From Muribaculaceae bacterium (GTDB taxonomy: Bacteria > Bacteroidota > Bacteroidia > Bacteroidales > Muribaculaceae): a stretch of 64,000 nucleotides of DNA. Below, piece after piece: positions 4,363 through 60,728 of the stretch. Under the pieces are notes generated by a model. That model did no database searches. It saw nothing but the letters and a program-made list of their open reading frames with translations, and was not told the DNA's origin. A program made the position numbers and the translations under genes. The stretch is taken from NCBI GenBank assembly GCA_022509085.1, contig JAFLTW010000001.1, positions 310,001 to 374,000 on the forward strand, given 5' to 3'. Numbering within the stretch: position 1 is the stretch's first letter; each line of letters begins with the position of its first letter.

Positions 4363-6261
4363 ATGAGAAAATGGCGCATAGAGGATTCCAACGAGCTGTA
4401 CAACGTTTCAGGTTGGGGCCTCAAATACTTTTCTATCAATGATAAGGGGCATGTGCAGGTAACGCCCAAGCCGGATTGCCAGCCCATCGATATTCGCGAA
4501 GTCATCGACGAGCTGAGGGTGAAGGATGTCTCCGCCCCTCTCCTCCTTCGCTTTCCGGATATCCTCGACGACCGCATCCGCAAGCTCTCCAACTGCTTCG
4601 ATAAGGCTTCTAAAGAATATAACTATTCCGGCCAGAGCTATGTGGTCTATCCTATCAAGGTGAATCAGATGCGCCAGGTGGTGGAGGAGATAATCAGCCA
4701 CGGCAACAAGTATAATATCGGGCTGGAGGCCGGTTCGAAGCCTGAGCTCCATGCTGTGCTCGGTCTTACAAGCCATGCCAATTCCCTCATCATATGCAAC
4801 GGCTATAAAGATGAGGATTATGTGGAGCTTGCCCTTCTTGCCCAGAAGATGGGTAAGAGAATCTATATCGTGGTGGAGAAACTCAATGAGCTGAAACTCA
4901 TCCAGACTGTATCCAGGCGCCTGGGCATCATGCCCAACATCGGCATCCGCATCAAGATCACCTCTGCCGGCAGCGGCAAATGGGAAGGAAGCGGAGGCGA
5001 CGTGAGCAAGTTCGGCCTCAACTCCAGCGAACTGCTCGACGCCCTCGAGTTTCTCGACAAGAACAAGATGCGTGAGTCGCTCAAGCTTATCCACTTCCAT
5101 ATCGGTAGCCAGATCACCAAGATCAGGCGCATAAAGAATGCTCTAAGGGAGGCCATGCAGTTTTACGTGCAGCTCTCCAAGATGAATTTCGACATCGAGT
5201 TTGTAGATATCGGTGGCGGTCTCGGTGTCGACTACGACGGCACCCGTTCCGCCTCCGGCGAAAGCTCGATGAACTATTCCATACAGGAGTATGTCAACGA
5301 CTCCGTGTTCGCCCTCGTGGACGCTTGCCAGAAAAACGACCTTAAACAGCCCAATATCATCACCGAGAGCGGTCGCTCCCTTACGGCCCATCACTCTGTG
5401 CTTATTATCGAGGTGCTCGAGACGACACAGCTGCCTCTCTGGAACGACAACGATACCATAGGGGATGATGCCCATGAGCTCACCAAGGAGCTCTATAATA
5501 TCTGGGACAAGATTAACCCCTCGAGGGTGTTTGAAGACTGGCACGATGCCCTCCAGATACGCGAGGAGGCGCTCGAACTTTTCAGCCTCGGCCTGCTCGA
5601 CCTCACCACCAGGGCCCAGATTGAAAAACTCTTCTGGTCCGTTGCGCGCGACGTCAACGAGATGACTCACTCCATGAAGCATCCCCCCGAAGAGCTGCAG
5701 AGAGTATCCAAAATGCTGCCGGAAAAGTATTTCTGCAACTTCAGCCTCTTCCAGAGTCTGCCCGACAGCTGGGCAATCGACCAGATGTTTCCCATCATTC
5801 CGATCGAGCGTCTCAATGAGAAACCTACTCGCGAATGTACCATCCAAGACATCACCTGCGACTCCGACGGCAAGATAAACCGCTTCGTATCTCCGCAAGG
5901 CACCTCGCATTCCCTGCCCGTGCATGCCCTCAAAGCCAATGAGCATTACTACATCGGGGTATTTCTTGTAGGGGCATACCAGGAGATTCTCGGCGACATG
6001 CACAATCTCTTCGGCGATACAAATGCCGTGCATATCTCTATCAGTAAGGACGGATATGAGATCGAGCAGATTATTGACGGCGAACCCGTGGCCGACGTGC
6101 TTGATTATGTGGAGTATAATCCCAAGAAACTCGTAAGAAACCTTGAGGCTTGGGTGTCGGCTTCGATGAAAAACGGCTCCATTACCGCTGAAGAGGGTCG
6201 ACAGTTTCTTAACAACTATAAGTCGGGCCTGTATGGCATCACGTATCTTGAGCGTGACTGA
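4363..6261 (+). CDS. speA: Biosynthetic arginine decarboxylase
   Basis: YPIKVNQMRQVVEEI (PLP Lys), GLEAGSKPEL, HFHIGSQI, ITESGRSLTAHHSVL; ~630 aa. Confidence 0.93.
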   Translation: MRKWRIEDSNELYNVSGWGLKYFSINDKGHVQVTPKPDCQPIDIREVIDELRVKDVSAPLLLRFPDILDDRIRKLSNCFDKASKEYNYSGQSYVVYPIKVNQMRQVVEEIISHGNKYNIGLEAGSKPELHAVLGLTSHANSLIICNGYKDEDYVELALLAQKMGKRIYIVVEKLNELKLIQTVSRRLGIMPNIGIRIKITSAGSGKWEGSGGDVSKFGLNSSELLDALEFLDKNKMRESLKLIHFHIGSQITKIRRIKNALREAMQFYVQLSKMNFDIEFVDIGGGLGVDYDGTRSASGESSMNYSIQEYVNDSVFALVDACQKNDLKQPNIITESGRSLTAHHSVLIIEVLETTQLPLWNDNDTIGDDAHELTKELYNIWDKINPSRVFEDWHDALQIREEALELFSLGLLDLTTRAQIEKLFWSVARDVNEMTHSMKHPPEELQRVSKMLPEKYFCNFSLFQSLPDSWAIDQMFPIIPIERLNEKPTRECTIQDITCDSDGKINRFVSPQGTSHSLPVHALKANEHYYIGVFLVGAYQEILGDMHNLFGDTNAVHISISKDGYEIEQIIDGEPVADVLDYVEYNPKKLVRNLEAWVSASMKNGSITAEEGRQFLNNYKSGLYGITYLERD

Positions 6262-50779: not shown

Positions 50780-51973
50780 TCAATGGTTGTGCTCACCATG
50801 GTCTGAAGCCATCGATGCCAGATAGAAGGCCTTGGCAGTTACGATGCTTGCATCTTCAGGGAGCGGCTTTGCTGTCTGTATCTCGACATAGCCGCCGCTA
50901 CGGTTTCCTTTAACCACCTCAATCGGCTTGAATACATACGCAGTCACCCCATTGTGCTCTTCCTTCTCTTCCAGGAGGAAAATGCAATCCTTACCCTCCA
51001 CATTCACCACAGCCTCCTCCGGCAGCGCCGTCACCCTTTCATGTCCCGTGCTTATAAAGCCTGCCACGGCCATACCCTGAATGAGGGTAGACTCTCCCTT
51101 CTCTCCCAGCCTTACCCTTACGGCTACAGTCTTCGTCTCGCTGTCTATGGCCCTTACAATGTCTTCTACGGTTCCTTTCAGTTTCCCTCCCCCGTTGGTA
51201 AGCGTCAGGTCCACAATATCCCCCTCCTTTATTTTATTGAGGTCTTTCTCATACACATTTAATCGGGCGTATATTCCGTTCGGATCGGATATTGTCATCA
51301 GAGTCTGGTAGGGTTCTACCCCACTTCCGATCCTGCAATCTATCTTCGTTACAATTCCGCTTATCGGAGCGGTAATGTATGCGATATTCCCGGCATTTTC
51401 CTTAGCTCCATTGTCAGGGTTCACGCCGGCGGTTTTCAATTTGGCGCGGCAGTTGTCAAGCAGCCTCACGGCCGTTTCATAATCGATGCGCGCCCTTATC
51501 AAATTTTTGGCGACACCGGCACCATGGGATGCGAGTCTCTCCTGCCTGTCCAGTTCCTCCCTGGCTATCTTTACGGCTGTCTGAGCCTCCACCCACTGGT
51601 TTTGCAATGACTCGATTTCAAGGTTCACCACAGCCGCAAGTCTGGCGCCGGCTTTCACGGTCTCTCCTTCTCTCACGTAAAGAGATTTTATTATTCCGGC
51701 CATCATCGGGCTCACCTCCGCGTTGTTCTGAGGGTTGGCTTCCAGCTCTCCGTAGGCTGTCACACCCTCACCGATGGGAATCAGAGATATGTGCCCCAGC
51801 TCTACTCCCACTGTAGACATCTGCTTTTCGGTGAGTTCTATTGTCTCCCCGTGTCCTTCCTCATGCTCGCCGTGCTCCTCACCGGCTGCCACGCCGGAAT
51901 GATTCGTGCATCCGAGAGCCATCAGCAAGGCTCCCACACCCACAGCCAGATATTTTATTTCCTTTATTTTCAT
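50780..51973 (-). CDS. Efflux RND periplasmic adaptor (CzcB/CusB-like), His-rich
   Basis: Lipobox MALGCT; EEHGEHEEGHGE; barrel-sandwich MMAGIIKSLYVREGETVKAGARLA; C-term DHGEHNH. Confidence 0.9.
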   Translation of the reverse strand: MKIKEIKYLAVGVGALLMALGCTNHSGVAAGEEHGEHEEGHGETIELTEKQMSTVGVELGHISLIPIGEGVTAYGELEANPQNNAEVSPMMAGIIKSLYVREGETVKAGARLAAVVNLEIESLQNQWVEAQTAVKIAREELDRQERLASHGAGVAKNLIRARIDYETAVRLLDNCRAKLKTAGVNPDNGAKENAGNIAYITAPISGIVTKIDCRIGSGVEPYQTLMTISDPNGIYARLNVYEKDLNKIKEGDIVDLTLTNGGGKLKGTVEDIVRAIDSETKTVAVRVRLGEKGESTLIQGMAVAGFISTGHERVTALPEEAVVNVEGKDCIFLLEEKEEHNGVTAYVFKPIEVVKGNRSGGYVEIQTAKPLPEDASIVTAKAFYLASMASDHGEHNH

Positions 51974-53229
51974 ATCTCTCCTTTTAAAACTTGCAGTTTC
52001 ACTGTAATCTCATTATACCGGTCGATTGTATCCATATACTCCAGCCAGATTTCCGCTACACTCTCCATGTTTTGCATATATTCCAGATAATTAATCTCTC
52101 CGAGTTCATACGAAATCTGTGCGAGCTTACGGATTTCGGTCGCTTGTCCTATTGCTTCATTCTGATAACAGCTCAACCTTTCCCACAGGAGAGCGAGGTC
52201 GTTGCATAAGGTGTCATATTCAGTTTTTTGCCGCAACATCTCATCCTCAAGTTCCAGCCGGGCAGATTCTGTCTCCATCTTTGCCGAGAGCAGATTCGAC
52301 CGTTTGGAGCCGAAGAAGAGAGGAACGGTAATACCTACTGAAAACCCCATAAAGTTTCCCTTGGTGAAACGCTGGCGTTCCACATGATAAGGGTTGAAAC
52401 CTTTTATTACGAGTTGGCTCGTGGCCGAAACGGAGAGCCCCGGCAAAAACTGCTGGCGTGCAAGCCACACATTTTTCCTGGTCAGCTCGATTCGGGCAGC
52501 CAGGGCCCGCGCACTGTAGGTAGACAAGGCATCAAAATCGTCGGCGCCAGCATATTCCAACACCACGAGGTTCCAGTCCGAGGCATCCACCGGGCCGTCG
52601 GCCCCGATAGCGCGTGCGAGTTGAAACTGCAGATTTTTCAAGGTATTGGCTGCCTCCTCAAGCCGGTTTCCCATTTTTGACTTCATCCTGTCGGCATTAA
52701 GGCATTCAAGGCGGCTTGCGTCTCCCTCTTCAAACCTTCGGTGGGTGATGCGCGAAAACTCCTCGTAAATATTCATCTCGCTTTGGAGGAAATCCATCCT
52801 TACATGGGCCACCTGAAGGGCGTTGTAGAGGGTGACAACATTGCCTCGCAATTCAGCGCACACTCCACCGTATTCTTCCCTCAACACGTCCTCTTCAGCC
52901 TTAAACACCCTTCTGCGGGCAACGTATACCGTTGGGAAGTCAAATTCCTGACTGAAGGTGAGGCCATTGTCCGGTCCGGCTCCCTCAATGGCATTCTGAC
53001 TCAATTCAATCGACGTGTTGGGAATGTCAAGGTAGGTGCCTCTCCTGGCTTCCGCCACGGCTATCTTTTGCTTGTTGCCGCGCAACGTCGGATTATTTTC
53101 CATCGCCTGCTCCAGACACTCCTCCAGGGTCAGCGTCTCTACCCGGGGAAAGGCCGTAACACAGATAAGACACAGCAGTGACAACAGACTATACCGTAAT
53201 TTCATCTTTCTTTTTTGTAAACAGTTCAT
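51970..53229 (-). CDS. TolC-family outer membrane factor (CzcC-like)
   Basis: LTLEECLEQAMENNPTLRGNKQKIAVAEA; long helical pattern. Confidence 0.86.
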   Translation of the reverse strand: MNCLQKRKMKLRYSLLSLLCLICVTAFPRVETLTLEECLEQAMENNPTLRGNKQKIAVAEARRGTYLDIPNTSIELSQNAIEGAGPDNGLTFSQEFDFPTVYVARRRVFKAEEDVLREEYGGVCAELRGNVVTLYNALQVAHVRMDFLQSEMNIYEEFSRITHRRFEEGDASRLECLNADRMKSKMGNRLEEAANTLKNLQFQLARAIGADGPVDASDWNLVVLEYAGADDFDALSTYSARALAARIELTRKNVWLARQQFLPGLSVSATSQLVIKGFNPYHVERQRFTKGNFMGFSVGITVPLFFGSKRSNLLSAKMETESARLELEDEMLRQKTEYDTLCNDLALLWERLSCYQNEAIGQATEIRKLAQISYELGEINYLEYMQNMESVAEIWLEYMDTIDRYNEITVKLQVLKGEI

Positions 53230-56200
53230 ATATGGCCGGCAACACTATTAAGGTAAGGAGCGTCGCGGTGATAAGACCGCCTATCACCACGGTGGCCAAC
53301 GGACGTTGCACCTCCGCTCCGTCTCCCCTCGAGAGGGCCATCGGCAGAAAACCAAACGAGGCTACCAGAGCCGTCATTATTACGGGTCGCAGGCGTTCCC
53401 GGCAACCTTTCATCACTCTCTCCCTTACGTTTCTTACTCCCTCCTTTTCCAGATTGTTGAATTGCCCTATCAGCACTATGCCATTCAACACGGCCACGCC
53501 GAAAAGGGCTATGAACCCTACTCCGGCCGAGATGCTGAAAGGCATTCCCCTCACCCATAGGGCCACCACTCCCCCTATCAGTGCCAGAGGTATGGCAGAA
53601 AACACAAAGAGGGTCTCGCGCAGACTCTTCAGTGTGGCGAAGAGCAGAAGCAATATCAGCACCAGCGCAAGAGGTACGGCTATAGAGAGCCGCGAAACGG
53701 CCTCCTTCAGATTCTGATATTCCCCTCCGTATGTGTAATAGTATCCCGTAGGCATTTCAAGGTGTTCATCCAGAATGGCCTGGACATCGCGCATGGTGCT
53801 CTGCACGTCGCGGCCTCTTACGTTAAAGCCAACATATACCCTTCTCTCACCCTCGTCATGGGTCACCTGCGAAGGCGCTCCCCTCTCTTCTACCAGGGCC
53901 AGCTCTCCGAGGCTCACAGTGCCACCACTTCTCATAGGGATTCTGAGGTTTTTTATCGCGTCAATATCGCTCTTATGCGCCTCGTCAATCCTCACCATGA
54001 TGTCGAATTGCTTCTCTCCCTCATACACCTCCCCGGCCTTCGCTCCAGCAAAGGATGACTCCAGCACCCTGTTGGCCTCCTCGATATCCACCCCATATGC
54101 CGCAAGGCGTCCCCGGTCATATTCCACCTGTATCTGGGGCAATCCCTGAATCTTTTCCACTATGGGGTCCGTAAGTCCGTCTACATCCTTTATCAGCTTC
54201 GAAACCTTTGTGGCCAGTGAGCTCAACACGTCGAGGTCTTCACCATAAATCTTGATGGCCACATCCTGCTTGATGCCCGTTATGAGCTCGTTGTTTCTCA
54301 TCTGTATCGGCTGCGTCATCTCCACCTCCATACCCGGAATCACGCTAAGACTCTCTTCCATCATCTCCATCAGTTCCTCCTTGGTCCTGGCTGATGTCCA
54401 TTGACCCTTCGGAAGAAGGGCTATGAGCATGTCTGCCCTCTCCACGGGCATGGGATCTGTGGGGATTTCCGCGCTTCCGATACGTGTCACCACCTGCTTC
54501 ACCTCGGGGAAATTATCCTTGAGAATCTTCTCCGCTATCGTCATGGTCTCCACCATCTGTGTCAGCGACGTACCCTGTGCCATGCTCACCTCAGCAGCGA
54601 AATCCCCCTCCTCGAGAGTGGGGATGAATTCACCGCCAAGCCGGGTAAACAGCCATATGCTCCCGCCAAATAATATCGCCATCGATACGATAAGCGCTAC
54701 GCCATGGTTAAGGCAATATCTCAATACGGGGCGATACACCTTCTGAAGCCAGGATATTATTCTGTCGGAAATGTTGTTGCTTTTGGGCACCTTCTTGCTC
54801 AGAAATACCGCGCTTGCCATCGGCACATAGGTGAGCGAGAGGATGAAGGCTCCGAGAATGGCAAAGAAGATTGTTAGTGCCATCGGGCGGAACAGCTTGC
54901 CCTCTATACCTCCCAATGTGAGGATCGGGAGATAGACGATCATTATTATAATCTCGCCGAAAGCCGCACTGTTGCGTATCCTTGAGGCTGAATATTCCAC
55001 CTCCCGGTCCATTTCGGGTTGCGTCAGTCTTCCGCCGGGATACCGCGATTTCATCAGTTCGATATGGTGCACCACGGCCTCCACGATGATTACAGCCCCG
55101 TCCACTATGAGTCCGAAGTCTATTGCTCCTAGACTCATAAGGTTGCCGCTGATATGGAAAAGCCTCATCATTCCGAATGCGAAGAGCATCGAAAGAGGTA
55201 TCACGGAGGCCACCACCAATCCGGCTCTGAGATTGCCGAGAAACAATACCAGAATGAAGATTACGATGAGGCCACCCTCCATAAGGTTGCGGCTTATCGT
55301 ACCGCTCACACGGTCTACGAGTTCCGTACGGTCAATGAACGGCTCTATCACTATACCTTCAGGGAGGGTCTTTTGGATATGTGATATTCTCTCCTTTACC
55401 CTTTCTATCACCTTCTGGAAATTCTCGCCCTTGAGCATGAGGGTGATTCCTGCCACCACCTCCCCCTCACCGTTTCGTGTTACGGCTCCATATCTTGTGG
55501 CATGGCCCTCTCTCACGTCGGCCACATCCCCTACCGTTATCAGGCGGCCGTCATGGCTGTTGATAGCCGTGGCGCGCAAGTCTTCAAGGCTCTCGGCCCG
55601 GCCTATTCCGCGAATATAATACTGGTTGCTGTTTCTTTCTATATAGCTGCCCCCGGTGTTGGCATTGTTACGGCTTATGGCGTCGTACACGTCGCTTATG
55701 GTGAGGCCGTAGTAGTCGAGTCTGGCTGGGTCGACCGCCACTTCATATTGCTTCACATAGCCTCCCCAGCCGCTCACTTCCGCGATACCCTCTGTGCCGG
55801 AAAGCTGTTTCCTTACTATCCAGTCCTGTATGGTGCGGATGTCGGATAGGCTATACTTGTCTTCATATCCCTCCTTGGCTCTGACGGTGTAATGGAATAT
55901 TTCCCCCAGACCGGTGGAAATCGGACCGAGACTCACTTCGGCCTTCCCGGCAGGAATGGCACCGTCACTTTCCTTCAATGCCTGCGTAACCTGTTCGCGC
56001 GCCCAGTAGATATCCGTGTCGTCCTTAAACACCAGGGTGATTACCGACAGACCGCTTCGGCTTATACTTCGGCGCTCTATCACCTCCGGGATGTTGGCAA
56101 GGCCCATTTCCAAGGGCGTGGTGATGTTCAGTTCCACCTCCTGGGCACCAAGCGACGGTGCCTGCGTAATTATCTGCACCTGATTGTTGGTGATGTCGGG

Positions 56201-56347
56201 TGTGGAATCAAAAGGTAGATTATGTAGGGATATGGCGCCCCAAACTATGAGGGCAACGGTCAATACGGAGATAATTACCTTATGTCCGATACTGAACCGG
56301 ATGAGTTTTTCAAACATCTTTTCATGATTTCTGATTGTAAGATTCAA
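53189..56347 (-). CDS. CusA/CzcA-family heavy-metal efflux RND permease
   Basis: 1052 aa; FDSTPDITNNQVQIITQAPSLGAQEVE, DFGLIVDGAVIIVEA, GGEFIPTLEEGDFA. Confidence 0.94.
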   Translation of the reverse strand: MNLTIRNHEKMFEKLIRFSIGHKVIISVLTVALIVWGAISLHNLPFDSTPDITNNQVQIITQAPSLGAQEVELNITTPLEMGLANIPEVIERRSISRSGLSVITLVFKDDTDIYWAREQVTQALKESDGAIPAGKAEVSLGPISTGLGEIFHYTVRAKEGYEDKYSLSDIRTIQDWIVRKQLSGTEGIAEVSGWGGYVKQYEVAVDPARLDYYGLTISDVYDAISRNNANTGGSYIERNSNQYYIRGIGRAESLEDLRATAINSHDGRLITVGDVADVREGHATRYGAVTRNGEGEVVAGITLMLKGENFQKVIERVKERISHIQKTLPEGIVIEPFIDRTELVDRVSGTISRNLMEGGLIVIFILVLFLGNLRAGLVVASVIPLSMLFAFGMMRLFHISGNLMSLGAIDFGLIVDGAVIIVEAVVHHIELMKSRYPGGRLTQPEMDREVEYSASRIRNSAAFGEIIIMIVYLPILTLGGIEGKLFRPMALTIFFAILGAFILSLTYVPMASAVFLSKKVPKSNNISDRIISWLQKVYRPVLRYCLNHGVALIVSMAILFGGSIWLFTRLGGEFIPTLEEGDFAAEVSMAQGTSLTQMVETMTIAEKILKDNFPEVKQVVTRIGSAEIPTDPMPVERADMLIALLPKGQWTSARTKEELMEMMEESLSVIPGMEVEMTQPIQMRNNELITGIKQDVAIKIYGEDLDVLSSLATKVSKLIKDVDGLTDPIVEKIQGLPQIQVEYDRGRLAAYGVDIEEANRVLESSFAGAKAGEVYEGEKQFDIMVRIDEAHKSDIDAIKNLRIPMRSGGTVSLGELALVEERGAPSQVTHDEGERRVYVGFNVRGRDVQSTMRDVQAILDEHLEMPTGYYYTYGGEYQNLKEAVSRLSIAVPLALVLILLLLFATLKSLRETLFVFSAIPLALIGGVVALWVRGMPFSISAGVGFIALFGVAVLNGIVLIGQFNNLEKEGVRNVRERVMKGCRERLRPVIMTALVASFGFLPMALSRGDGAEVQRPLATVVIGGLITATLLTLIVLPAIYELFTKKKDEITV

Positions 56348-56419
56348 GGAGCGGCCCGACGCATCTGCGGCGCCCTATGTTGAATGCTCCGATACCTCCC
56401 TTTCCAGGGAGGCCGTTTA

Positions 56420-56803
56420 TCATGAAAAGAGTGGTGAACCCCTTAATTTTTGAGCCTTTGCCCGATATCGGGGTCCTGAAGCGTTGAATGCCGGATTCTT
56501 TACCGCTCCCTCATATTCTCCGGCGTTAGGGGCATAACTCTGGGTTACTGTCTCTACGCCTTGAATCTCTATCAAAAGGTGTTTGCCTTGGAGAGCATTC
56601 TCTGCTTTCAGCTGAGGTATGTCCAACTGGCATTCCTCATGAGATGAATCATGGGTCGGGAGCCGGTCAGCGCGTTCCATACAGATAATGCCGTCATGAT
56701 GATGATGCGGCACATAAAAAGCCAACAGCCCCATAAGCAAAAGTCCAAGGAGCATGATGGCTTTGTTCTGTATGTCTCTTTGCTGTTTCATTTCCAACAG
56801 CAA
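56420..56803 (-). CDS. His-rich small protein (DUF6769-like)
   Basis: TM segment then YVPHHHHDGIICMERADRLPTHDSSHEEC; lies within metal-efflux cluster. Confidence 0.6.
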   Translation of the reverse strand: MLLEMKQQRDIQNKAIMLLGLLLMGLLAFYVPHHHHDGIICMERADRLPTHDSSHEECQLDIPQLKAENALQGKHLLIEIQGVETVTQSYAPNAGEYEGAVKNPAFNASGPRYRAKAQKLRGSPLFS

Positions 56804-56816
56804 ATTTAATAAAATA

Positions 56817-57872
56817 TCACCTAACTGCCAAAACCGCCCTCCTCTGGTTGGCTATCCTCACCAGGGTAAGCATTACCGGCACCTCTACCAAAACACCTAC
56901 CACTGTGGCCAGGGCTGCACCTGAATTAAGGCCGAAAAGGGAGATGGCTACGGCTACGGCAAGCTCGAAAAAGTTGCTGGCCCCGATCATGGCTGCCGGG
57001 GCCGCGATGCTCTGCGGCAGGCGCCAGGCTTTTGCCCAACCGTAGGCAATGAAGAAAATGACGAAGGTCTGTAGAATAAGCGGCACAGCGATCAAGACAA
57101 TGTGCAGAGGATTGGCGAGGATAGTGTCGCCTTGAAAAGCGAAAAGGATAATGAGCGTAAGGAGAAGTCCGACGGTGGTAAACGGTCCAAACTTACTTAC
57201 GAAAACATTGTTAAAGTAATCTATACCTTCTCGCTTTACGACTATTATCCGTGTTATGATTGCGGCGACCAAGGGTATCACCACAAATAGAACGACCGAT
57301 AGTATAAGTGTGGCCCAAGGGATGGCAACGCCCCCAATGCCGAGAAGGAAGCCGACTATCGGCACGAAGGCCACAAGGATTATAAGGTCGTTTACAGCGA
57401 CTTGCACGAGTGTGTAGGCAGCATCGCCTTTAGTGAGATAGCTCCATACGAACACCATGGCCGTGCAGGGAGCGGCACCAAGCAGAACTGCCCCGGCCAG
57501 ATATTGGTCGGCAAGCTCGGTCGGGATTAGTGTTTTGAAAATCACGAAGAAGAAAAGCCATGCGATGCCGAACATCGTGAATGGCTTGATAAGCCAGTTG
57601 GTGACGCAAGTAATCAAAATGCCTTTGGGACGCTTCCCGACGTTCATCACGCTCTTGAAATCCACCTTAAGCATCATCGGGTAAATCATCAGCCAAATCA
57701 ACACGGCAATCGGGATTGACACATTGGCATATTCCCACTTTCCGAGCGTCGCCGGAAACGCCGGAATAAAATAACCGATCGCAATTCCCGCAACGATGCA
57801 AAGCGCAACCCATACGCTAAGATATTTCTCAAAAAAGCCTATTCCTCCGGCCTGCTTCTTTGACTCGCTCAT
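56817..57872 (-). CDS. ACR3-family arsenite efflux transporter
   Basis: IGFFEKYLSVWVALCIVAGIAIGYFIP, GAAPCTAMVFVWSYLTKGD, IGASNFFELAVAVAISLFGLNSGAALATVVGVLVEVPVML. Confidence 0.95.
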   Translation of the reverse strand: MSESKKQAGGIGFFEKYLSVWVALCIVAGIAIGYFIPAFPATLGKWEYANVSIPIAVLIWLMIYPMMLKVDFKSVMNVGKRPKGILITCVTNWLIKPFTMFGIAWLFFFVIFKTLIPTELADQYLAGAVLLGAAPCTAMVFVWSYLTKGDAAYTLVQVAVNDLIILVAFVPIVGFLLGIGGVAIPWATLILSVVLFVVIPLVAAIITRIIVVKREGIDYFNNVFVSKFGPFTTVGLLLTLIILFAFQGDTILANPLHIVLIAVPLILQTFVIFFIAYGWAKAWRLPQSIAAPAAMIGASNFFELAVAVAISLFGLNSGAALATVVGVLVEVPVMLTLVRIANQRRAVLAVR

Positions 57873-57966
57873 TTCAAATTTTCTTTATAAAATTTGTAAA
57901 AAGTATCTTTGATTTCATCGCGCACTCGTGAACGGCAACTGGTCCCGGTGCAAAGCACCAATATCC
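57873..57966 (-). pseudogene. Internally deleted arsenate reductase (LMW-PTP-type ArsC) remnant
   Basis: Minus-strand frame between arsA stop and acr3 start: VRILVLCTGTSCRS|RVRDEIKDTFYKFYKENLK*; N-terminal CX5R loop joined directly to C-terminal helix; no ATG; stop overlaps acr3 start. Confidence 0.75.
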
Positions 57967-59679
57967 TTACTTCTCTTTCCATTCAATGATTGAGATGTTG
58001 TTGTCTGAAAGGTCTCGCACCATGTCAATCCATTTCTCCTCTCCGTTGGCACGGGCCTTAAGGAAGGGATTGTTGGTGTCGGTAAGGGCGAGCGACTGAT
58101 TTACGACCCACCATTTATTGTTGATGCCGGCACGGCGCAAATCGGCCTGGAGTCTTTCAGCTTCAAATACCGGAGTCGCTTCCGGAAGTGTCACGATCAC
58201 AACCTCTGTTTCATTCTTGTCGCGGAGTCTCGGAAGCAGTTTCTTTACAGATTCGGGGATGTCGCCATGGGTCCTCTCCACTTCGCGATGATAGCTTTGC
58301 GTGGCGTCAAGAAGTAGCAGCGTATGGCCCGTGGGTGCAGTGTCAATAACCACTATCTCGTCATCCGCCTTGTCAACAATTTCAGCGAAGGCACGGAAAA
58401 CCGCAATTTCCTGGGTGCATGGCGAGCGAAGATCTTCCTCGATATAGGCCATATCTTCCTCCGTCATGGCGGTTTTAGCCTTTGAGCGCACCTCGTTCTT
58501 ATAGTTTTCGAGCACTTCCGCCTCGTCAATCTTGCTCATTGTGATGCCGGCGCCTTTCATCGCGGAGTAGTCGAGATGGTTGGCAGGGTCGGTGGTGGTG
58601 AGATGCACTTTTTCCCCCTTTGCCGCAAGTTGCTTGGCTATTTCGGTGGCAATGGTGGTTTTGCCTACGCCACCTTTACCCATCGTGAAGATTACGCGCT
58701 TGCCGGATTTTTTGAGGTCGTCGACCAACTGCTCGAGAGTCGCATAGTTCTCCGGTTTCCTGTAATTCTCATCTGCTTTCAGTTCATCCGAAACAAGCAT
58801 TTTGCGGATTTTGGAGATGTCGGAAAGATTATAGGAACGGAGAGGTACGAAATAGGTTTTAATATTCCGTAATGCTTCCGGCATTTCATTCAGAGCATTT
58901 TGCTGACGCTCAAACATCTCATGGGTTATTCTGTCGGAGGGCTCATCCTTTTCAAGGAGAGCGTTTATCACGAGCACCTGGTTGTTGACACCGAGCAAAC
59001 TCAATTCGTGCGATGAACGTGCGGCCTCCTTCAAGGGAGAAATGTCGGGACGGCTCACCAACACCAGTGTTGTTAGTCTTGAATCCGAAAGCGTCGAGAC
59101 CGCCTGTTTGTATATTTCCTTCCTGGCTTCGAGTCCGGAAAGCTGCCCGAGGCAGGAGGCGCCGTGGGTGCTTTCGCTGATGAAGGTGCTCCAGGCGGAA
59201 GGCAACTGTAGCATGCGGAGAGTGTGGCCGGTGGGTGCCGTGTCGAATATGATGTGGTCATATTCGGACGCCTTGTCGGCAGCCGTGATGAAGTCGGAGA
59301 ATTCATTGAAGGCCGCTATCTCGACGGTGCAGGAACCGGAGAGTTGCTCCTCCATATTTGTTATCACGCTGTCGGGGAGTTTGCCACGGAAGGGAGCTAT
59401 CACACTCTCGCGATATTCGGCTGCAGCCTCCTCGGGGTTGAGGTTAACCACTGTCAAGCCGGGAACCTCATTTATGGCGCTACCATGTCCGTCGAGTTCC
59501 TGACCGAAAACGTCCTGCAGGTTACTTGCCGGGTCAGTACTAATCAGAAGAATTTTCTTCCCTTGGTCGGCAAGACCGATGGCCGTGGCGCAGGCTATGG
59601 AAGTCTTCCCAACTCCTCCCTTACCGGTAAAAAACAGATATTTGGTAAGGTCTATCTTGTCGATTGCGTATTTTTCCAT
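57967..59679 (-). CDS. arsA: Arsenical pump-driving ATPase ArsA
   Basis: Two P-loops: FFTGKGGVGKTSIACA and FTMGKGGVGKTTIATE; DTAPTGHTLRML/DTAPTGHTLLLL. Confidence 0.96.
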   Translation of the reverse strand: MEKYAIDKIDLTKYLFFTGKGGVGKTSIACATAIGLADQGKKILLISTDPASNLQDVFGQELDGHGSAINEVPGLTVVNLNPEEAAAEYRESVIAPFRGKLPDSVITNMEEQLSGSCTVEIAAFNEFSDFITAADKASEYDHIIFDTAPTGHTLRMLQLPSAWSTFISESTHGASCLGQLSGLEARKEIYKQAVSTLSDSRLTTLVLVSRPDISPLKEAARSSHELSLLGVNNQVLVINALLEKDEPSDRITHEMFERQQNALNEMPEALRNIKTYFVPLRSYNLSDISKIRKMLVSDELKADENYRKPENYATLEQLVDDLKKSGKRVIFTMGKGGVGKTTIATEIAKQLAAKGEKVHLTTTDPANHLDYSAMKGAGITMSKIDEAEVLENYKNEVRSKAKTAMTEEDMAYIEEDLRSPCTQEIAVFRAFAEIVDKADDEIVVIDTAPTGHTLLLLDATQSYHREVERTHGDIPESVKKLLPRLRDKNETEVVIVTLPEATPVFEAERLQADLRRAGINNKWWVVNQSLALTDTNNPFLKARANGEEKWIDMVRDLSDNNISIIEWKEK

Positions 59680-59696: not shown

Positions 59697-60062
59697 TTAA
59701 CAGCAGCAGCTATTATTATCTGATTCAGTCTTATCCTCCGGCATGGGTATGAAAGAGAGGTTAACTCCGCTCCATTCCGCCATCTGGGCTGTTGAGGGAT
59801 ACTCGCCTACAACTGCCACCTCTCCGTCAACGAGGGTTATCGGGAGTGCTTCAATTCCTTTTGATTGCAGGAGTTCGTTTACCTTGACGTTGGAAACATA
59901 GACAGCCGGCTCGTCTTTGAGATTATGACGTGTGATGTTGATTCCTTTCTTTTTGAGAGTATCAACGATGACAGCTATACGCATCAGATTGGGGTCGATG
60001 TTGGTTCCGCAGAGACCCGTCGGGCAACACATTGCAGGATCGAATATTTCAATTGTCTTCAT
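59697..60062 (-). CDS. arsD: Arsenite metallochaperone ArsD
   Basis: FDPAMCCPTGLCG; C-terminal SCCC; adjacent to arsA. Confidence 0.94.
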   Translation of the reverse strand: MKTIEIFDPAMCCPTGLCGTNIDPNLMRIAVIVDTLKKKGINITRHNLKDEPAVYVSNVKVNELLQSKGIEALPITLVDGEVAVVGEYPSTAQMAEWSGVNLSFIPMPEDKTESDNNSCCC

Positions 60063-60074
60063 ATCTTTTCTTAT

Positions 60075-60335
60075 TTATTTGGTTTTGTATTCTTCAAGAA
60101 TTTTGACTAACTCTTTTCTATTGTGGGGTCCTTTGGCCACAACTTTTTCGTCAATGACGAGGGCCGGAAGAGAAAGGATGTTGTAAGACATAATCTTCAT
60201 AAGATCTTCCTCCTTGGCAACATTTGCCTCAATACCTATTTCCTTTATTATTTCAGCCACATTCTCGAACATTGCCTTGCACTTTGAGCAACCTGTTCCT
60301 AAAACTTTTATATCCATTGTCTTTTTCATTTTCAT
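60075..60335 (-). CDS. Glutaredoxin/thioredoxin-like redox-active disulfide protein
   Basis: MDIKVLGTGCSKCKAMFENV (CxxC), SLPALVIDEKVVAKG. Confidence 0.87.
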   Translation of the reverse strand: MKMKKTMDIKVLGTGCSKCKAMFENVAEIIKEIGIEANVAKEEDLMKIMSYNILSLPALVIDEKVVAKGPHNRKELVKILEEYKTK

Positions 60336-60395: not shown

Positions 60396-60728
60396 TTAAT
60401 GACAGCATTGTCCCTTATCTTCGTTTTTGCAACATTGGTCGAATAGGGCTGTGAAAAGAGCCTTGGCCTCTTTCCAGGTGTCGCAGTTTAGACAATAGCG
60501 AACCTTTGGAGGTTCGATGGTGCCTTGAATGAGTCCGGCTTCTTTCAGTTCGCTGAGATGTTGTGAAACGGTTGGCTTAGAAACTGAGAGAACTTCATGG
60601 ATTTCTCCGAAGAAACATTCGTCTCTCTTGGCAAGAAACTCAAGTATGGCAACCCTAGTAGGATGTCCCATAGCTTTTGCCAGACGCGCAAGTCTCTCCT
60701 GCTCAGTGGTTATAATCAATTTAGACAT
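60396..60728 (-). CDS. arsR: ArsR-family transcriptional regulator
   Basis: LAKAMGHPTRVAILEFLAKRDECFFGEI, VSKPTVSQHLSELKEAGLI. Confidence 0.92.
   Translation of the reverse strand: MSKLIITTEQERLARLAKAMGHPTRVAILEFLAKRDECFFGEIHEVLSVSKPTVSQHLSELKEAGLIQGTIEPPKVRYCLNCDTWKEAKALFTALFDQCCKNEDKGQCCH

Follow-up and report, generated by a model that had tools for sequence, protein, structure and literature searches.

The ars operon and the arsA–acr3 junction

The window, by which we mean the whole 64-kb stretch of DNA analysed, comes from a gut-type Bacteroidales bacterium and encodes on its minus strand an operon of the Bacteroidales arsR-arsD-arsA-(arsC)-acr3 kind, with the same genes in the same order and on the same strand as its counterparts apart from arsC (Table 1). 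ArsR, the ArsE-type protein, ArsD, ArsA, and Acr3 all score above their family cut-offs, so that arsenite sensing and efflux are to be expected. In the position of arsC, the window has only a short open frame to which that gene has shrunk, whereas most same-genus operons carry a cation diffusion facilitator (CDF) gene there. Directly downstream and on the same strand, positions 50780-56803 encode an efflux system of HlyD/CusB-like, TolC-like, and CusA/CzcA-like RND pump components (named by inspection), along with a small His-rich protein that has a weak match, below cut-off, to DUF6769.

Table 1. Positions of the ars operon genes and of the arsC remnant within the window
Feature	Positions	Strand	Basis or description
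arsR-type metalloregulator	60396..60728	minus	NF033788, 64.5 bits, cut-off 55
ArsE/MTH895-family thioredoxin-like protein	60075..60335	minus	TIGR00412, 94.5 bits, cut-off 62
arsD metallochaperone	59697..60062	minus	NF033727, 129.9 bits, cut-off 90
arsA, arsenite-pump ATPase	57967..59679	minus	TIGR04291, 827.5 bits, cut-off 650
arsC remnant, 37-codon open frame	57869..57982	minus	between arsA and acr3; MEREVRILVLCTGTSCRSRVRDEIKDTFYKFYKENLK followed by a stop
5' part of the remnant, ArsC residues 1-18, CX5R loop CTGTSCR	57929..57982	minus	matrix score, alignment
3' part of the remnant, C-terminal helix, aligned to ArsC residues 124-142	57872..57928	minus	matrix score, alignment
acr3, arsenite efflux permease	56817..57872	minus	TIGR00832, 388 bits, cut-off 282.8

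The first-pass annotation had read the 94-bp gap between arsA and acr3 on the minus strand as the relic of an arsC gene whose ATG was gone and whose stop overlapped the acr3 start as that of an intact arsC would. The gap and its reading were borne out, with an open frame slightly longer than claimed, at 37 codons. The statement on the start codon held only in part: intact relatives begin arsC with ATGGAAAGAAAAATGAGA, which offers two in-frame ATGs, and of these the second is replaced by GTA in the window, whereas the first survives at 57982-57980, within the last arsA codons and in a different frame from arsA. It had been missed because the frame was read from beside the arsA stop. At the other end, the TGA at 57871-57869 does overlap the acr3 ATG at 57872-57870 (ATGA), and the same overlap is seen in G025/HAN054, a genome of the same genus with an intact arsC.

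The further claim that this ars operon lacks an arsenate reductase agrees with our searches of the genome. With PF01451, PF03960, and the ArsC of a relative as queries, no other ArsC of either type was recovered from this 93.9% complete genome, which has no member of the glutaredoxin-type ArsC family (PF03960), and the remnant itself occupies the arsC slot. The only candidate for a second arsC was the sole LMWPc-family protein of the genome, a 172-aa Wzb-like tyrosine phosphatase with the loop CLGNICRS, which was rejected. Given the completeness of the genome, there is still a slight chance of an arsC elsewhere.

ArsC signatures and the missing middle

A position-specific scoring matrix was built from 20 full-length ArsC of related loci and applied to the window in all six frames (82,905 positions), with six shuffles as a chance control. 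The N-terminal part of the remnant, RILVLCTGTSCRS, scored 40.1 bits, against 5.5 bits for the runner-up in the window and a shuffle maximum of 8.4, while the C-terminal part, RVRDEIKDTFYKFYKENLK, reached 44.8 bits, against 2.8 for the runner-up and a shuffle maximum of 1.2. The two matches adjoin in one shared frame and lie in the expected operon slot; two independent top matches in this arrangement leave the ArsC identity scarcely in doubt. The original assignment of the first half to the CX5R loop of an LMW-phosphatase-type, thioredoxin-coupled ArsC, and of the second to its C-terminal helix, is thereby upheld. When the translation was compared with ArsC as a whole, as had been proposed at the outset, all 37 aa together resembled the NCBIfam ArsC models weakly (E=0.018 and 0.057; 13.7 and 15.4 bits versus cut-offs of 174.3 and 215) and had no Pfam LMWPc match, because the fragment is so short; the separate scoring of each half superseded this family scan.

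Measured against the 142-aa ArsC of G025/HAN054, the window joins the first 18 and the last 19 residues in frame, with 14 of 18 identities in residues 1-18 and 11 of 19 in residues 124-142. Residues 19-123 are absent—105 codons, or 315 bp, exactly in frame—where the first-pass annotation had put a large internal deletion of about 100 residues fusing the N-terminal loop to the C-terminal helix. The best solved-structure matches of this intact relative are B. subtilis 1JL3 (E=1.6e-25) and S. aureus 1LJL, and it scores 115 bits against TIGR02691, below the cut-off of 174.3. Being of the thioredoxin type by structure matches yet under the NCBIfam cut-offs, it represents a divergent ArsC branch.

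In the ArsC reaction, the attack on arsenate comes from the loop cysteine, and another two cysteines relay a disulfide to thioredoxin. The remnant retains Cys11, Cys16, and the loop Arg within the CX5R loop CTGTSCR; the missing stretch takes in the intact relative's Cys83 and Cys90, counterparts of the redox cysteines in the solved ArsC structures 1JL3 and 1LJL. Given this chemistry and the loss of both resolving cysteines, the remnant cannot be such a reductase, and its predicted product could not reduce arsenate by the ArsC mechanism. Compared with thioredoxin-coupled ArsC of the S. aureus pI258/B. subtilis type (LMW-phosphatase fold, TIGR02691), it shares the N-terminal CX5R loop and the C-terminal helix, but it is without the 105 central residues and both resolving cysteines, falls short in length and fold (37 aa versus about 130-142 aa for a full LMWPc-fold ArsC), and carries Thr in place of the loop Asn (CTGNSCRS) found in 20 of the 20 compared ArsC. 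This substitution and the loss of one of the two starts are signs of relaxed constraint; elsewhere the fragment is well preserved, as might equally be expected after a very recent deletion, under selection on the short frame, or from a collapsed assembly.

Thioredoxin-like proteins of ars operons have been suggested as electron donors to ArsC (PMC2963123), and the putative ArsC partner of the ArsE-type protein is gone in this operon. It is a reasonable prediction from the gene content that the operon would keep arsenite sensing and pumping, and thus give arsenite resistance without reductase-dependent arsenate resistance.

Origin and retention of the remnant

Judged by sequence comparison, the remnant is very probably a pseudogene of a thioredoxin-type arsC that lost its middle through a single in-frame deletion or an intragenic recombination of equivalent effect. 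Starting from an ancestral arsA-arsC-acr3 operon like that of the intact relatives, such an event would have removed the 315 bp of codons 19-123; the product, if made, would have neither the fold nor the two resolving cysteines, and the leftover frame, running from inside arsA to the acr3 start codon, may still pass ribosomes from arsA to acr3. Neither a close relative with the same deletion nor an immediate full-length parent was found among the compared genomes; the event is therefore undated, and the deletion ends lack single-base precision. Direct repeats are absent from the 401 bp surrounding the junction, and no parent sequence was near enough to define junction microhomology.

The two genes flanking the remnant have different nearest relatives. 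The window ArsA has HAN064 as its tree neighbour (95% identity, support 98) and the window Acr3 has HAN051/HAN065 (about 90%, support 99), and DNA identity to HAN064 is 86% in arsA but 73% in acr3. The operon is therefore a mosaic: one of these lineages has a breakpoint at or close to the arsC slot, and the remnant may thus have arisen either by simple deletion or by recombination within arsC. This pattern is consistent with a scar at which arsA and the arsC start of one operon lineage were joined to the arsC end and acr3 of another, an origin that we consider fairly unlikely, as the mosaic is equally explained if acr3 was replaced in HAN064, which has a long Acr3 branch, and neither partner has an arsC half; HAN064, the closest genome by ArsA, has no arsC in the slot. 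Such a scar would also concern how the pseudogene arose, not what the remnant is.

Selection on the 37-codon frame, as a translational coupler or a functional small peptide, would account for an in-frame deletion in which both gene overlaps were retained and no stop has arisen, and the overlaps may preserve translational coupling. Some arsC-less operons have tight junctions as well, with arsA and acr3 joined at one ATGA in HAN051 and the acr3 start placed inside the arsA end in HAN064 and in an uncultured Bacteroides. Still, we regard such selection as distinctly improbable: a deletion has a one-in-three chance of an in-frame outcome, arsA and acr3 lie about 8 to 50 bp apart in other arsC-less operons, and no second example was found for a conservation comparison. 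Equally doubtful is the proposal that the remnant was retained since it couples arsA–acr3 translation, with arsC loss in this operon family tending to keep the overlaps and discard the enzyme in a reduced, arsenite-dominated gut.

That the organism has a full arsC whose middle was collapsed or mis-joined during assembly is highly improbable. In favour of such an artefact, the genome, in 36 contigs at 93.92% completeness, is consistent with a metagenome-assembled genome (MAG), and there is no full-length parent sequence for comparison at the junction. Against it, the join lies far within a 463,755-bp contig and is flanked by no direct repeat, the missing middle is found nowhere else in the assembly, the altered loop residue and lost second start point to real decay, and many operons of the same group are without arsC.

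The arsA–acr3 slot in related genomes

Comparison of the locus in related genomes, likewise proposed in the first-pass annotation, did recover full-length arsC: the gene of G025/HAN054 occupies this very slot and overlaps arsA and acr3 just as the remnant does, and HAN057 has an intact arsC at the same arsA junction, with the downstream acr3 frame broken. Relative to both, the window carries a homologous remnant in the syntenic slot of the intact gene, the arrangement by which an arsC pseudogene is recognised. More broadly, the slot holds an intact arsC in Bacteroides, Phocaeicola, Porphyromonas, and two Muribaculaceae-labelled MAGs (HAN054 and HAN057); a CDF gene in HAN055, HAN056, HAN059, HAN060, HAN065, and others; and nothing in HAN064, HAN051, a Prevotella MAG, two Bacteroides, and three others. 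A whole-genome ArsC search found a full ArsC in two (G025 and G095) of the 13 genus and family genomes with this arsA or acr3 type; across the 13 related genomes, the slot is mostly taken by the cation-efflux gene and is empty in two. At least eight changes of slot state are required on the ArsA tree or on the Acr3 tree.

Absence of arsC is thus the usual state in related genomes and is not peculiar to this one; the unusual feature here is a readable arsC fossil, the only one seen among them. No further copies of the remnant were detected among the acr3 carriers in 111 genus genomes or among the arsA carriers in 399 family and 395 order genomes, and a title-and-abstract literature search returned no report of arsC pseudogenes in Bacteroidales. 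The remnant is an ordinary pseudogene, and the loss belongs to a group-wide pattern. As evidence preserved in situ, it hints that in this Bacteroidales group ars operons lose arsenate reduction and keep arsenite efflux, which is relevant when the presence of an ars operon is used to predict arsenate reduction, and the slot pattern across relatives—arsC, a cation-efflux gene, or nothing or a remnant—is more useful than the lone pseudogene.

Most ars operons of related Muribaculaceae have a CDF gene in the arsC slot, encoding a protein of ~300 aa (loci L017, L018, L020, L039, L043, and L111). In HAN051 (L021, 5700-5715), a single ATGA forms the overlap between arsA and acr3, the arrangement that would result from precise excision of arsC between its two ATGA overlaps. 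In HAN057/G095, arsR-arsD-arsA-arsC is followed by an acr3 frame broken after four codons (L015, around 6120-6150), while another contig carries a CDF-acr3 pair preceded by a short arsA-like stretch (L164, 4831-6972); with its arsC part and its CDF-acr3 pair on separate contigs, the operon of this genome is split.
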